DNA from: Persicirhabdus sediminis
Lineage (GTDB): Bacteria > Verrucomicrobiota > Verrucomicrobiia > Verrucomicrobiales > Akkermansiaceae
Assembly (NCBI RefSeq): GCF_016595495.1
Contig: NZ_JAENIM010000039.1
Location: 478,659-542,658 of the forward strand
Direction: 5' to 3'
Length of the DNA stretch: 64,000 nucleotides
In this document: positions 50,478-55,544 of the stretch, piece after piece
How positions within the stretch are numbered: the first letter of the stretch is position 1
Layout: each line of letters opens with the position of its first letter
Notes under the pieces: model-generated
What the model was told of the DNA's origin: nothing
Seen by the model: the letters and a program-made list of their open reading frames with translations, nothing else
The model's database searches: none
Made by a program: the position numbers and the translations under genes

Positions 50478-52076
50478 TTACAGCTCAACTGCAGTAACGG
50501 CGAGGATGCCTGGTGCTTCTGTGAGCAGGTTGATGACGCTCTCGTCAGCAGCGGAATCTAGCTGGATCACATTGACTGCGTATCCGAGATCTTTGTTGCG
50601 GCTGAGTGACATGTTGGAAATGTTGATTTCCTTGTCGGCGAGCACAGTACCTACAGTACCAACGATGCCTGGGCGGTCGTCGTTTTTAACGATGATGAAG
50701 TTGCCTTTGATGGCAGTTTCAACCGCTTGACCTTCGATATTAACGATGCGAGGTGCTGAGCCAACAAATGTGCCAGCTACAGTGTAAACTTCGTCACCCT
50801 TAACGATTTCAGCTTTGATGAGTTCGGTGAAATCAGCTTCTTCAGCAGAAGTAGACTCAGTGATCTGCAGACCCATGGACTTGGCGATGGCTGCGCAGTT
50901 TACCAGGTTCACTTGACCTTCTTGGCGGCTGGCTGTCAGGTAGCCAGTCAGCGCTGTGCGTGTGATGGCAGATGTTTCCAGCTCAGAAACTGCACCGTAA
51001 TAAGTAACGCGCAGTGAATCTGGCTGATGTGGAGCCAGCTTGCTAAGGAGTTTGCCAAGTGATGTGGCAAGCTCGAGGTAGTCACCAATTTCTTCAGCTG
51101 TTTTGGCGTCTAGGCTAGGCATGTTCACCGCGTTGGTGATGGCACCTTGAGTGAAGAAGTCACGCAGTTGCTCAGCAACTTGGATGCCAACATTCTCTTG
51201 GGCTTCGTTAGTAGATGCGCCAAGGTGTGGAGTGAAGATGATGCGCTCGTCGCTATCAAATACAGCTTGATCTAGTGTTGGTGGCTCGTTTTCGAATACG
51301 TCCAGAGCGGCACCGCCGATGCGGCCAGATTTCACAGCAGCAGCCAGAGCTACTTCGTCGATCAGTCCACCACGTGCACAGTTAACGATCAGCGCGCCTT
51401 TATTGAGAAGCTCAATGCGGTCAGCGTTGATGATGTGTTTGGTGTCTGGTGTCATTGGCACGTGAAGAGTCACGCAATCAGCACCTGTGAGTGCTTGGTC
51501 AACGGTCTCAGCAAGCTCAACTTTGAGAGCTTCGGCGCGTGCTGCGCTGAGGAATGGGTCATAAGCGACCACAGTCATGCCAAATGCTTGTGCGCGCTTG
51601 GCGAACTCAGCACCGATGCGGCCCATGCCGATTACAGCGAGGCGCTTGCCATTCACTTCAGTACCTTGGTACTTTTTGCGATCCCAGCGGCCGGCAAGAA
51701 TAGAGCCGTGAGCTTGTGGGATGTGGCGTGCGAGTGAGAGCAGGAGAGAAAATGCATGCTCGGCTGTGGAGATAGTATTGCCAGTCGGTGTATTCATGAC
51801 GACTACACCGTTGTTTGTAGCGGCGTCGCGGTCGATGTTATCAACACCAACACCAGCGCGGCCAATAGCCTTGAGCTTAGTTGCAGCTTCAATAACTTCA
51901 GCCGTAGCTGTAGTCTGTGAGCGCACGATCAAGCCATCATACTGAGGGATGATTTTGAGGAGTTCTTCTGGAGCGAGGCCAGTATTGACATCCACTTCAA
52001 GTTCAGGGTGATCCGCGAGTAGCGCCACACCTTTTTCAGAAATTGGGTCCGATACGAGAATGCGTTTAGTTGCCAT
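50478..52076 (-). CDS. serA: D-3-phosphoglycerate dehydrogenase
   Basis: First enzyme of serine synthesis, oxidising 3-phosphoglycerate with NAD+. The 532-aa length and order (substrate domain, Rossmann domain, ASB intervening domain, ACT domain) fit the long type found in B. subtilis and Mycobacterium. Key parts: IVRSQTTATAEVI, RAGVGVDNIDRDAA, LAVIGMGRIGAEFAKRAQAFGM (NAD-binding), LIVNCARGGLIDE (catalytic Arg), DVFENEPP (Glu) and IFTPHLGAST (His). The C-terminal NFIIVKNDDRPGIVGTVGTVLADKEINISNMSLSR is the ACT domain, which usually binds serine for feedback control. Confidence 0.97.
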   Translation of the reverse strand: MATKRILVSDPISEKGVALLADHPELEVDVNTGLAPEELLKIIPQYDGLIVRSQTTATAEVIEAATKLKAIGRAGVGVDNIDRDAATNNGVVVMNTPTGNTISTAEHAFSLLLSLARHIPQAHGSILAGRWDRKKYQGTEVNGKRLAVIGMGRIGAEFAKRAQAFGMTVVAYDPFLSAARAEALKVELAETVDQALTGADCVTLHVPMTPDTKHIINADRIELLNKGALIVNCARGGLIDEVALAAAVKSGRIGGAALDVFENEPPTLDQAVFDSDERIIFTPHLGASTNEAQENVGIQVAEQLRDFFTQGAITNAVNMPSLDAKTAEEIGDYLELATSLGKLLSKLAPHQPDSLRVTYYGAVSELETSAITRTALTGYLTASRQEGQVNLVNCAAIAKSMGLQITESTSAEEADFTELIKAEIVKGDEVYTVAGTFVGSAPRIVNIEGQAVETAIKGNFIIVKNDDRPGIVGTVGTVLADKEINISNMSLSRNKDLGYAVNVIQLDSAADESVINLLTEAPGILAVTAVEL

Positions 52077-52324: not shown

Positions 52325-53011
52325 ATGAAATCAGCATTAATAACTATGGGCGCTGTGTGTGTGACCATGGTCTCCGCAGTGGCGGAATACCGTGTGCCAT
52401 ATGGCGTATTTAAAGTCGACCAGCTCGAAGAGGCGAAGTCGCAAGCAAAGGAAAAGGAGCGTCCGCTGGCATTTGTGTGGATGAATCCTGGCACTACATG
52501 AGGACCTTGTTTGGCGGCCTGTGAGGTTGCCTTGAAGCAGTTGAAGCGGGTAGCAGTACCTGTTTTTGTGAGCACTAAGAATGACGAGGTGCAAAAGTTA
52601 AGCGTGGAGGTGAGGAAAGGCTTCGCAAATGCAGAGAGCGGGAAAACGATTCCCAAGACCTCCATTACTAATGCAGATGGTAGCAAGTACCTATTTGCCA
52701 TTCGTTATGAGCAATGGAAGGATGACTCGAAAACCATGCGTGAGGTGCGCACTAAGCTCGAGGCGATTGATGTGATGTCCGGGGTGAGCTCATCATCCAG
52801 TAGCTCTTCAGCTTCCACATCGTCATCAAAGGCGGTTTTTGAGAAATGGAAAAACATACAAGGCAAGGAGATTGAGGCCAAGCTGGAAGGCGTTGAAGGT
52901 GGCAATGCAGTATTTCGCCTGACCACTGGTAAAAAAGTTGATTACCCGCTCAACAAGCTGGATGCAGCTAGCCGCAAGCGCGCGGAGGAGAGGTTTGGAT
53001 CGGAAGAATAA
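52325..53011 (+). CDS. Candidate selenoprotein: secreted thioredoxin-like protein (UGPC) with SHD1-like domain
   Basis: Read with TGA at 52499-52501 as selenocysteine, this gives one 228-aa protein. Residues 1-20 are a Sec signal (MKSALITMGAVCVTMVSAVA). RPLAFVWMNPGTT then Sec59-Gly60-Pro61-Cys62 sits exactly where thioredoxins have CGPC, after the first core strand; LAACEVALKQLKRVAVPVFVSTKND continues the fold. A Ser-rich linker (about 150-167) precedes an SHD1-like domain (FEKWKNIQGKEIEAKLEGVEGGNAVFRL...YPLNKLDAASR) common in PVC proteins. Coding character runs unbroken across the TGA. Only a TTG without ribosome site would allow a separate downstream gene. Alternatives are a nonsense-mutated pseudogene or a sequencing error. 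Role inferred: envelope disulfide or peroxide redox chemistry. Confidence 0.75.
52499..52540 (+). promoter_or_regulatory. UGA codon and bacterial SECIS-like stem-loop
   Basis: After the TGA, GGCGGCC (52513-52519) pairs with GGTTGCC (52525-52531) through five Watson-Crick and two G-U pairs, leaving loop TGTGA. The loop begins 18 nt past the TGA, inside the 16-37 nt range I recall for bacterial SECIS elements, and has G at loop position 2, as that model requires. A short lower stem (CTT 52506-52508 with AAG 52535-52537) is possible. Confidence 0.65.
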
Positions 53012-53036
53012 AGGAGCAAATTCCTGAATATAAAAA

Positions 53037-53066
53037 AACAGCCTCAATCGCATGATTGAGGCTGTT
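53037..53066. terminator. Bidirectional terminator after the selenoprotein candidate
   Basis: Perfect 13-bp arms (AACAGCCTCAATC and mirror), loop GCAT, A-run before and T-run after. It separates the gene from the convergent L,D-transpeptidase gene. Confidence 0.93.
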
Positions 53067-53131
53067 TTGGGTAAAAGTTGTTTTTCAGCCAGCTGGAAAT
53101 TGCATCAGCTGGGCAATTTGGCTAGCGCAGC

Positions 53132-53779
53132 TTATTCGACGACGACTGGTGTACCTTTGGCTACTTTCGAGAATACCGTCGATACTGAGTTGGAGTGAGT
53201 GCGGATGCAGCCGTGTGATGCTGGGTAGCGGGGAACACGTCCGCGATGCATGCCGATGCCGTCCCATGAAATGCGCATCCAATAGGGCATGGAAGCGCCT
53301 TCAAATCGACCACCTTCCGGGATGGGGTCTTTGCCATTAGTGGCATCAGAGTTCACAACATTGTCTTCGGCGTCGTAGATCTTGCCGTAAAGCGTAGAGC
53401 GTTTGTCTTTCTCTAGTTTTTCCAGTACTTGGTATTTTCCTGGAGGTGTTGGGTATTTCTTTTTGCCAGAGGAAATTGCGTAGTCCATGGCGACTTCATT
53501 GCCGTTATACAGCCTGCCGCGCTGGTTGCTCAGGTCGATAACGATGCGCGCATTTGAGCCATTGGTCTTGGCTAGCACGCTTTCATTACGATAAGCTCTG
53601 CTGGTCTTGCTGTACTCAGGTGAGTGACGGAAGTGCAGGTAGGTGCCTTTTTGGTACGGGTTGACGAAAACAGCCTTGTAGACCTCTTTTTGATTAGGAT
53701 TTGGGGTGCTTGGTGTAGAACAGCTTGCAAATGTCAATGCTGCGCTAACGGGTATGAGTAATTTCAAAAATATTTTCAT
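53132..53779 (-). CDS. L,D-transpeptidase (YkuD) lipoprotein
   Basis: A 215-aa lipoprotein (MKIFLKLLIPVSAALTFASC lipobox) with a YkuD catalytic domain. RIVIDLSNQRGRLYNGNEVAMDYAISSGKKKYPTPPGKYQVLEKL is the entry to the fold; IGMHRGRVPRYPASHGCIRTHSNSV is the H...S-H-G-C-I-R active site with the nucleophilic Cys. It would form 3-3 peptidoglycan cross-links or attach proteins to the wall in the periplasm. I start at the ATG at 53779; the upstream frame to 53845 would displace the lipobox. Same strand as the two thioredoxin-fold genes behind it. Confidence 0.92.
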   Translation of the reverse strand: MKIFLKLLIPVSAALTFASCSTPSTPNPNQKEVYKAVFVNPYQKGTYLHFRHSPEYSKTSRAYRNESVLAKTNGSNARIVIDLSNQRGRLYNGNEVAMDYAISSGKKKYPTPPGKYQVLEKLEKDKRSTLYGKIYDAEDNVVNSDATNGKDPIPEGGRFEGASMPYWMRISWDGIGMHRGRVPRYPASHGCIRTHSNSVSTVFSKVAKGTPVVVE

Positions 53780-53935
53780 CGTCTGGGAGACCCGAGGGGG
53801 TCGGCGCGACGAAACTAACGAGTGTACGTATGCATGGCAAGGCAACTTTTTGCCATGATTTCACGAATTGGTCGATAAATGTCCAGCTGGCGGTAAAAAT
53901 CCTAGTCGATTTGCTGGTGCTGTTTTGCCGGATCA

Positions 53936-54502
53936 CTACTCGCGAGTGACTCCTTCAGGCATCCAATCTGGCCCTAAGTGCATGATTTTTGCACCTGATC
54001 CGGCCTTTTTACCAGAGCGTGAGTGTTTGGCCAATTCGGCAATTTTTTCCTCAAGCAATTTGCTGTTATTGAACCTGCTGAACTGTGTGATACGACGATT
54101 TTCGTCATAAACAAGAACGGTCGGCAGGGTGCTGATTGAAGCGTAATCAACTGCGTCTGAATGCATCTTGCCGTTGATTTTCACCACCGTGATGTCATTG
54201 TACATGCTATTGTAGATCTCTTGAAGATCGGCTTCCAAAGCATCGCTGTCGTTGTCAGGTCCGTAGAAAAGGACGAGTAAAAGTTTATCTTCTGTAGAGA
54301 TATAATCTAGATATCCGGGGTGATCGAGATCGTAGATTGTAGTGTTTGGGCCGTCGATGGCAACTCGAGTTATATCAACAAAAGCATTGGCTAGTAGCAG
54401 CAAGGATGTCTTTAGACCATTAGGGCTGGTGCTAAAAATGGCTGCGCCAAAAACGGCTGATATTACGAGTGCTAGCTTCAGCAATTTGAAAACTGGCAAC
54501 AT
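53936..54502 (-). CDS. Membrane-anchored thioredoxin-fold protein without active-site cysteines, GVTRE tail
   Basis: A 188-aa protein. Residues 3-25 are a hydrophobic signal or anchor (PVFKLLKLALVISAVFGAAIF). KLLLVLFYGPDNDSDALEADLQEIYNSMYNDITVVKIN and DAVDYASISTLPTVLVYDENRRITQFSRF follow the thioredoxin fold including the cis-Pro (TLPT), but where CxxC should lie the sequence reads GPDNDSDA, with no Cys at all. The C-terminus (HLGPDWMPEGVTRE) matches that of the next gene. It may be a structural or chaperone thioredoxin relative. The name is from fold pattern; function unknown. Confidence 0.65.
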   Translation of the reverse strand: MLPVFKLLKLALVISAVFGAAIFSTSPNGLKTSLLLLANAFVDITRVAIDGPNTTIYDLDHPGYLDYISTEDKLLLVLFYGPDNDSDALEADLQEIYNSMYNDITVVKINGKMHSDAVDYASISTLPTVLVYDENRRITQFSRFNNSKLLEEKIAELAKHSRSGKKAGSGAKIMHLGPDWMPEGVTRE

Positions 54503-54571: not shown

Positions 54572-55153
54572 TTACTCTCTAGTTACACCTGGTGGTAGCC
54601 AGTTGGTGTCTAGAGTTTGGATTGTGGGAGGTTCTTCGGGGCTTGCTTCATCGTCCCAGAAAAACGAGAGCATGTCGGGGCTGAGTTCGCGAACCTTTGA
54701 CCGCAATTGGTCATAAGTCACGGGCCCTACATGGCTGTGAATTTCTTTACCTTTGTTGTAGACTTTAATGACGGGGGCTTGTTGAAAACCTTCCTTCACT
54801 GCCCATTCCTTATTTTCTTCGTAGCGGGCTTTAACAACGTGTACGCTGGATCCTAGTTTCTCAGCGGTGGTCTCAATCTCTTTATTCAGGTCTTTGTAAG
54901 CGGGTGAGGCTTCACTGTAGAAGTATATGAGAATGAGGCGCTCCTCTTCGCGAACGAGGTCGCGGAACCCTTCTTCAGACACGGAGTCGACATTTGACTC
55001 AGAGCCATTAGCGATCGCTTTGGAGACTTCTTGGGCCTTGATGAGCGATGAGCTGACAGCTGATTTAATGTCATCACAACTAGACAGTGATAGAGCGATA
55101 GCCGAGGCGACGCTTAATCTAAAACTGCATTGGATAACCTTGCTCATCTTCAT
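54572..55153 (-). CDS. Thioredoxin-fold lipoprotein without active-site cysteines, GVTRE tail
   Basis: A 193-aa lipoprotein (RLSVASAIALSLSSC lipobox at about residue 26 from the ATG at 55153). ERLILIYFYSEASPAYKDLNKEIETTAEKLGSSVHVVKARYEENKEWAVKEGFQQAPVIKVYNKGKEIHSHVGPVTYDQLRSKV is a thioredoxin fold with cis-Pro (QAPV), but SEASPAYK replaces the WCxxC loop. The tail TNWLPPGVTRE repeats the WMPEGVTRE of the gene at 53936, so the two are probably paralogs (69-bp gap, one operon). Longer in-frame starts exist up to 55234 but precede the signal. Function unknown; envelope location expected. Confidence 0.68.
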   Translation of the reverse strand: MKMSKVIQCSFRLSVASAIALSLSSCDDIKSAVSSSLIKAQEVSKAIANGSESNVDSVSEEGFRDLVREEERLILIYFYSEASPAYKDLNKEIETTAEKLGSSVHVVKARYEENKEWAVKEGFQQAPVIKVYNKGKEIHSHVGPVTYDQLRSKVRELSPDMLSFFWDDEASPEEPPTIQTLDTNWLPPGVTRE

Positions 55154-55544
55154 AACTATATTGCTATGAGTGTCTTGTGAAGACAAGCGGTTTATTTGAT
55201 TCTTGTGATTTTCCGGCATGAATGCGAATGGCAAAGGGTGATGGGGCTATTCGCGGGGTACGCTTGTAGGCACAAAACAATTATGTGTGTAACTGATCTG
55301 TGTAGTTGCGCAAAAGTTATTACACAGCCAATATGCGTAAATGGATTGAGTAATGCAACCCTTTATTTAGTCATGCTAGCTTGCTGAGTTTTAATCACTT
55401 TTTATAAAGCGGCTATTAGCAATCACTTAATCGAGTAAGTTAAACATTCGCTTCGCCTGCTTGTTCTGTTATATAGCTGTTGGTTCTAATTTTTATGACA
55501 GCTTGTAATCGTCAGAATGGTCATCATTTGTTAAGGATTTGCTC
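55154..55544. other. Intergenic region between the thioredoxin-like pair and lemA
   Basis: A 391-bp divergent spacer, A+T-rich with no ORF I trust. It probably holds both promoters. A TAAGGA ribosome site at 55531-55536 precedes lemA. Confidence 0.6.

Follow-up and report, generated by a model that had tools for sequence, protein, structure and literature searches.

A candidate exported thioredoxin-like selenoprotein with an SHD1-like domain in Persicirhabdus sediminis

A gene of Persicirhabdus sediminis with a single in-frame TGA codon very probably encodes an exported thioredoxin (Trx)-like selenoprotein, in which the TGA would be decoded by way of a hairpin and SelB, Sec59 and Cys62 would form a redox pair, and a C-terminal SHD1-like domain would serve to place the enzyme. 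The gene lies in a 64,000-nucleotide stretch of contig NZ_JAENIM010000039.1 (positions 478,659 to 542,658), referred to below as the window, and this explanation is the one that best accounts for the comparisons of its sequence with those of related genomes described here.

The gene and its surroundings

The frame starts with ATG, ends with TAA (53009-53011) and encodes 228 residues if TGA is read as Sec. Its one in-frame TGA is followed by GGA CCT TGT, giving U-G-P-C with Sec at the first Cys of a CxxC motif, as an earlier reading made from the sequence alone had claimed, and translation confirmed its further statement that the 228 codons contain no other stop. The protein reads MKSALITMGAVCVTMVSAVA-EYRVP...PLAFVWMNPGTTUGPCLAACEVAL...TIPKT..., after which come a linker rich in Ser and the C-terminal domain, FEKWKNIQGKEIEAKLEGV...AVFRLTTGKKVDYPLNKL. 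The expectation that gene callers would truncate the gene agrees with a listing of open reading frames of at least 80 aa, which holds on the same strand and in the same frame only the part after the TGA (52511-53011, 166 aa), starting from a TTG. The features of the gene, together with a second candidate gene discussed below, are listed in Table 1.

Table 1 Coordinates of the features of the window gene and of a second candidate gene of the same genome
Feature	Position	Strand	Basis or remarks
Selenoprotein gene (candidate): signal peptide, Trx-like domain with UGPC, Ser-rich linker, SHD1-like domain	52325..53011	+	Translation with TGA as U; full-length alignment with relatives that share the TGA position
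Probable Sec-pathway signal peptide, MKSALITMGAVCVTMVSAVA	52325..52384	+	Cleavage after A-V-A; read by eye; short hydrophobic stretch near the start in rows of alignment A1
Thioredoxin-like domain	52394..52774	+	UGPC at residues 59-62, Ile-Pro at 109-110 in the family alignment; Thioredoxin_7 in 5/30 members
TGA, selenocysteine codon 59	52499..52501	+	Related genes among the matches listed: TGA 63/95, Cys codon 31, AAT 1
TGT, resolving cysteine 62 of UxxC (predicted)	52508..52510	+	Invariant in 15 rows of A1; 62/65 TGA rows vs 16/31 Cys rows
bSECIS hairpin (candidate), loop TGTGA (NGUNN) at 52520-52524	52513..52531	+	Stem 52513-52519 / 52525-52531; register shared with relatives, covariation
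Codon of Pro110, candidate cis-proline of the Trx fold (Ile-Pro)	52652..52654	+	Pro invariant in 30 rows of alignment A2; cis state putative
Ser/Thr/Ala linker, residues 155-168	52787..52828	+	Sequence
SHD1-like domain, residues about 170-220	52832..52984	+	PF03983 in 3/30 members, not in this protein; 2hbp at E 0.29; profile part matches other proteins of the genome
Terminator-like stem-loop between the window gene and the convergent L,D-transpeptidase gene	53035..53068	.	15-pair stem, scored on the minus strand
Second candidate selenoprotein gene, P0002: signal peptide, SHD1-like domain, Trx domain with SASWUGPC	G000:C9:143214-143915 (L050:1450-2151)		TGA at C9:143613, loop AGTTG

The window gene stands alone. 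Upstream, a 532-aa frame (50478-52076), which we take to be serA-like, is encoded on the other strand, and downstream an L,D-transpeptidase gene (53132-53845; PF03734, E 1.3e-22) is convergent. The number of terminator-like sites was within chance (1 found vs 0.9, sd 1.1, in shuffled sequences), and the promoter scan found none. No partner gene recurring across genera was seen in 12 neighbourhoods read by eye, nine of them centred on UGPC-group relatives and three on further paralogues (L134, L135 and L136); members of one genus do share neighbours (L127 with L133, L128 with L132). Two adjoining minus-strand genes of the window, 53936-54502 and 54572-55234, encode Trx-fold proteins (PF00085) without CxxC. 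The product of the former contains no Cys and that of the latter only a lipobox-like Cys pair near its start; both are perhaps non-catalytic exported Trx-like proteins.

Proposed decoding of the TGA codon

The genome assembly (G000; 4.17 Mb, 47 contigs, 96.7% complete) contains selA (504 bits), selB (264 bits) and selD (370 bits), all above curated cut-offs, and a tRNA-Sec at C39:445242-445334 (51.8 bits, above the Rfam cut-off) which ARAGORN also calls as tRNA-SeC, so that the absence of selA, selB, selD or the selC tRNA, named in the sequence-only reading as a ground for giving up the proposal, was not observed. The selD gene (C29:4423-5346, L123) itself has one in-frame TGA, in SCGGUASK, and is a candidate for a selenoprotein SelD; UxxK is given as the Sec site of SelD in Table 1 of PMC13188914. 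With complete machinery and a TGA in selD itself, this cell probably decodes Sec whether or not the window gene is counted. TGA terminates only 3 of the 37 non-overlapping window frames of at least 200 aa, with TAA ending 21 and TAG 13, and such low use as a stop would suit a reassignment of TGA to a sense codon (e.g. Trp) throughout the lineage. TGA does, however, still end those three frames and frames of several relatives, relatives from selB-lacking genera carry Cys instead of Trp at the codon in question, and the genome has Sec factors, all of which leaves a global reassignment a practically negligible probability.

In the decoding proposed here, the hairpin just 3' of the TGA would recruit SelB carrying Sec-tRNA-Sec, and Sec would be inserted at codon 59 in place of termination. 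The 7-bp stem with loop TGTGA, which the earlier reading had put forward as a bacterial SECIS, is present. Its seven pairs include two G-U pairs and 18 nt separate the TGA from the loop; numbered from the T of the TGA as 1, the stem occupies positions 15-21 / 27-33 and the loop positions 22-26. Bacterial SECIS elements commonly have a small apical loop with a guanosine, according to passages of PMC1088965, and the window hairpin has a small apical loop containing G just after the TGA. Taken alone the hairpin is unremarkable, as 8% of synonymous recodings, drawn from the codon usage of eight genes of the window, reach seven pairs, and the corresponding figures for the longest stem (18%) and the MFE (5%) are likewise non-significant.

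The hairpin is convincing because the register of its loop is common to 26 of 27 distinct relatives, in which AGTNN stands at the exact register (AGTTC in 15, AGTTT in nine and AGTGT in two); the exception, L020, shows GCGGA in this place and forms another hairpin. The 28 distinct sequences of register 22-26, window included, were analysed as one set and 27 sequences of register 25-29, a second set of paralogues, as another. Among the 28, 83.2% of cells were paired vs a shuffled mean of 70.9%, and the covariation score was 0.379 vs 0.169, with 0/500 shuffles as high. Six of the seven pairs were changed on both sides, a number matched by 9/500 shuffles; pair 19-29 was open in 16/28 sequences, and all six slid versions of the hairpin scored lower (at most 55.1% paired). 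The mean number of pairs in a 6-bp stem was 5.11 in the register 22-26 set vs 3.90 (sd 0.15; highest of 500, 4.32) after synonymous recoding, and 5.11 vs 3.85 (sd 0.13; highest 4.26) in the register 25-29 set. The loop codon is AGT in 53/55 sequences, AGT making up 14% of the Ser codons in the pooled genes; in the window gene this codon is TGT, encoding Cys instead of the Ser of relatives, with the G-U of the loop retained. Five TlpA-like TGA sequences (L089, L091, L110, L117 and L121), with TGA at the first Cys and another kind of hairpin further from it, fit neither register and were left out.

The proposed bSECIS covariance search gave no SECIS match with Rfam models. RF00031 (SECIS_1) had no match anywhere in the genome and likewise none in the controls, which makes this result uninformative, and Rfam at E 10 on 52440-52640 gave no SECIS family and only four weak lncRNA matches. 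A covariance model, R1, was built from the sequences of this analysis and finds the window site by construction; besides that locus, its scan of the genome returned three weak matches (E 3.8-7.6), one of them at C9:143613. The SECIS proposal thus stood through the covariation of the family and not through the stem of the window gene alone. Comparison of these sequences shows that the TGA and the hairpin together have been kept by selection.

Relatives, exchange of Sec and Cys, and selection

The family survey covered 260 genomes, with protein matches at E 0.001 in 137, many to the SHD1-like part only. The 21 best family matches after the gene itself (33-41% identity) all have TGA at the Sec codon, and below these Cys forms are mixed with further TGA forms. 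The equivalent of codon 59 was tabulated for the loci covering the active site among the matches listed (30 + 65 loci, SHD1-only matches left out), giving 97 rows with paralogues mixed, nine of them TlpA-like and distant (5 TGA, 4 Cys), and, after removal of two duplicates, 95 distinct genes from 77 genomes, of which 63 have TGA, 31 TGC/TGT and one AAT. The TGA genes belong to genera g1, g8, g9, g10, g12, g13 and g16, the Cys genes to g3, g7, g11 and g14, and the AAT gene to g15. A sequencing error in a TGC or TGT codon, raised earlier as an objection, finds no sign here, TGA recurring in many separate assemblies. Relatives were also sought among plasmids, with no match, and by scans of named-genome contigs, where none was found.

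SelB was matched at E 1e-60 in 69 of the 260 genomes (68 over the cut-off), only in genera g1, g2, g8, g9, g10, g12, g13 and g16. Sec forms occur together with selB in 43 genomes and without detected selB in three (G220, G249 and G259; 84, 58 and 88% complete), Cys forms without selB in 30 and with selB in none, and the Asn form in one without selB. In other terms, selB is present in 43/46 Sec-bearing genomes vs 0/31 others, congeneric genomes being non-independent, and by genus in 7/7 Sec genera vs 0/5 others. An order-level profile search (A1; 288 genomes) found further TGA relatives outside the family, including 15 genomes of family f2 with TGA at the codon (among 30 loci examined). A selB match was obtained in 11 of these 15, one of them (G379) under the curated cut-off; the four without a match at E 1e-60 (G355, G357, G289 and G335; 95, 79, 92 and 85% complete) count against a simple rule. 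Assembly gaps may explain the Sec-bearing genomes without selB. The f2 genome G394, which has selB, carries on contig C180 (L155) a tandem trio in which one copy has the Sec codon, one TGC and one GAC, and Cys forms can therefore coexist with the Sec machinery. Across the sequences compared, the exchange of Sec and Cys nonetheless largely follows the presence of selB, and the alignment of homologues proposed in the sequence-only reading found TGA or TGC/TGT at position 59 in step with selB, with the three family genomes and four f2 genomes named above as exceptions.

Several variants of the gene were observed. In the G394 trio, the GAC copy has kept the SECIS-loop CAGTTCGG despite having no Sec codon there. 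The copy of the f2 genome G053 is in two overlapping pieces, with TAG codons in the first, and looks broken or misassembled. The motif has its second Cys in 62/65 TGA rows but only 16/31 Cys rows: ten Cys forms of g3 read CPLA or CSFA, and five of g14 read CPKT, CPKV or CSKT. With the second Cys missing in 15/31, the Cys relatives are partly altered proteins and not plain twins of the Sec forms. The ten g3 genes (L046, L057, L058, L066, L068, L070, L071, L073, L076 and L116), from a genus without selB, have kept the first Cys and lost the second, and several of them stop before the SHD1-like domain. Three loci (L042, L059 and L062, in G269, G271 and G272) have two in-frame TGAs five codons apart, of the type TULSGSUGST, with no resolving Cys, and are probable double selenoproteins.

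The ratio dN/dS after the TGA was 0.07-0.33 in the 11 of 15 pairs with finite dS; dS was saturated in the other four pairs, including all three with the window gene. Before the TGA (55-58 codons), the finite ratios ranged from 0.10 to 0.78. The low values after the TGA indicate that in the relatives the downstream part is not dead and is under purifying selection, the reverse of the inactivating decay in close relatives that had been named beforehand as the mark of a pseudogene. If the TGA had arisen from a Cys codon by nonsense mutation, the frame would be cut by a stop, as it formally is, and the searches held only one g1 genome, so this particular copy has no test against a close relative. 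TGA is nevertheless shared by 63 related genes of seven genera and by 15 genomes of another family, selection acts beyond it in the relatives, and the window frame is intact over the rest of its length; a pseudogene is accordingly extremely unlikely. It is also very unlikely that TGA acts as a true stop and that the product is an exported peptide of 58 residues, with the downstream part separate or unused. UGA recoding does compete with termination in E. coli, where the abstract of PMC4513850 puts recoding in vivo at 30-40%, but the downstream part of the window gene completes the Trx-like domain and includes the SHD1-like domain, it is under purifying selection in relatives, its only start is the TTG at 52511, and the Cys relatives read straight through. 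Under the preferred reading of TGA as Sec, partial termination at this codon may occur as a side product.

Domain architecture, a second candidate gene and proposed function

Pfam gave no family for the window protein (P0001) at E 0.01, the match to Glutaredoxin (E 0.073) being below the cut-off, and no PF00085 at E 1; NCBIfam gave no model at E 0.1. Thioredoxin_7 matches 5/30 family members (best E 3.8e-6), and the family alignment has UGPC together with a conserved later Pro (Ile-Pro), the pattern of a Trx-like protein. PF03983 (SHD1) matches 3/30 members (best E 1.1e-8), the window protein not being one of them, and positions 175-219 of the family profile touch the SHD1 of yeast Sla1 (2hbp) at E 0.29. 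The SHD1-like label given in the sequence-only reading is thus reasonable by way of these members and weak for the window protein on its own. An AlphaFold single-sequence model of the window protein was poor (mean pLDDT 48.9).

The SHD1-like part of the profile also matches other proteins of the genome. Six of them were scanned besides P0002, and PF03983 was found at E 0.1 or better in three, L055 being over the cut-off (24.3 vs 23.7 bits) and L049 and L051 below it, with no PF03983 match in L048, L056 and L052. Their other parts include a C39-like peptidase (L048), a cysteine-proteinase-like fold (L056) and an esterase-like part (L051), and on visual inspection several start with a signal-like stretch, although where L051 starts is uncertain. 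From these varied partners and signal-like starts we infer that the SHD1-like domain may be a general accessory module of exported proteins in this genome.

One of the SHD1-profile matches leads to a second candidate gene, P0002, with the two domains in reverse order. The match at C9:143265 lies in a frame ending ...FLLYFSASW, and the weak R1 match at C9:143613 (E 3.8) starts at the next TGA. P0002 has Pfam matches to Thioredoxin_8 (E 3.2e-11), AhpC-TSA (E 7.1e-8) and SHD1 (E 3.1e-4, below the cut-off). Parts of it were matched in 216/260 family genomes (E 1e-8), the best rows having an internal TGA and rows from genera such as g3, g7 and g14 having no stops. In the 20 best P0002 loci, own gene included, TGA is present in 23/23 aligned genes, each with a loop AGTT(G/A/T) at positions 29-33. 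Together, selD and the two SHD1/Trx genes of opposite domain order bring the candidate Sec genes of this cell to at least three.

Selenoproteins of several known types resemble the window protein in part. Sec-containing thioredoxin (PF00085, UxxC; Table 1 of PMC13188914) shares the Trx-type motif in which Sec replaces the first Cys, whereas the window protein has no PF00085 match at E 1 and has a probable signal peptide and a C-terminal SHD1-like domain. The Trx7/PDZ domain-containing (seleno)protein NF041199 likewise joins a Thioredoxin_7-type domain to an accessory domain, but combines CxxU (as given in PMC13188914) with PDZ, in place of UxxC with an SHD1-like domain; it matches 1/30 members at E 0.091, far below family assignment, and P0001 not at all (the NCBIfam scan of relatives applies to motif groups other than those of the second L020 gene, L085, L086 and L110). 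The thiol-disulfide isomerase-like (cd02966) and Prx-like thiol:disulfide oxidoreductase (PF00578) selenoproteins with UxxC, also in PMC13188914, likewise have Sec at the first Cys and are nearest to P0002; no SHD1 is present in these entries, and the window protein falls outside these Pfam families. The SHD1 of Sla1 is a yeast domain, whereas the domain described here is bacterial, probably exported and joined to a Sec-Trx.

No SHD1 fusion appears in the portions covered of the prokaryotic selenoprotein inventory of PMC13188914 (2026; 119 families and subfamilies, many of them UxxC Trx-like), and the term SHD1 has 0 occurrences in its main text. The string 'verrucomicrob' has 0 occurrences in the main texts of PMC13188914, PMC12013277 and PMC9312934, as far as the portions of these papers covered extend. 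A full-text literature search, which took in a minority of subscription papers, returned nothing that joins selenocysteine with SHD1, and the literature on the SHD1 domain or similar proteins, by title and start of abstract, held nothing on such a bacterial selenoprotein. Within the searches made, this seems to be an undescribed selenoprotein family with a new architecture, its chemistry and decoding being already known. The earlier suggestion that an exported protein of this architecture may be new is supported and is extended by the Sec paralogues and by P0002.

Insertion of Sec by SelB would be followed by export of the chain from the cytoplasm, directed by the N-terminal signal peptide. 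The Sec of U-G-P-C would attack as a selenolate in thiol-disulfide (or peroxide) exchange, Cys62 would resolve the intermediate, and the C-terminal SHD1-like domain would probably hold the enzyme at an extracytoplasmic partner or site common to the other SHD1-type proteins of the lineage. A Sec protein with a different role, as a peroxidase or in Se storage or metal binding and not as a thiol-disulfide oxidoreductase, is unlikely but deserves consideration: the window protein has no Pfam assignment, the double-TGA forms have an additional Sec five residues N-terminal to the usual one and no resolving Cys, and the loss of the second Cys from nearly half of the Cys forms is odd for a Trx. Against this stand the UxxC motif, complete with its second Cys in nearly all TGA rows, and the invariance of Pro110 in A2.

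Beyond the single gene, a wider picture can be offered tentatively, as a possibility that falls short of being probable: the selenium users of the lineage might run an exported Se-redox system of SHD1-tagged Sec-thioredoxins, comprising at least two pairings (Trx-SHD1 in the window and SHD1-Trx at C9:143214), Sec paralogues and double-Sec forms, served mostly by one NGU-loop type of SECIS and brought by the SHD1-like domain to the extracytoplasmic site of the cell's own SHD1-type hydrolases. Simple ORF prediction breaks genes of this kind at the TGA, so the number of exported selenoproteins in these bacteria is probably underestimated. The switch between Sec and Cys across sister genera, largely tracking selB, offers a natural experiment on the benefit of Sec to an exported oxidoreductase, and the repeated combination of a Sec-Trx and an SHD1-like domain, with either of them in front, offers a testable clue to the function of the SHD1-like domain in bacteria.
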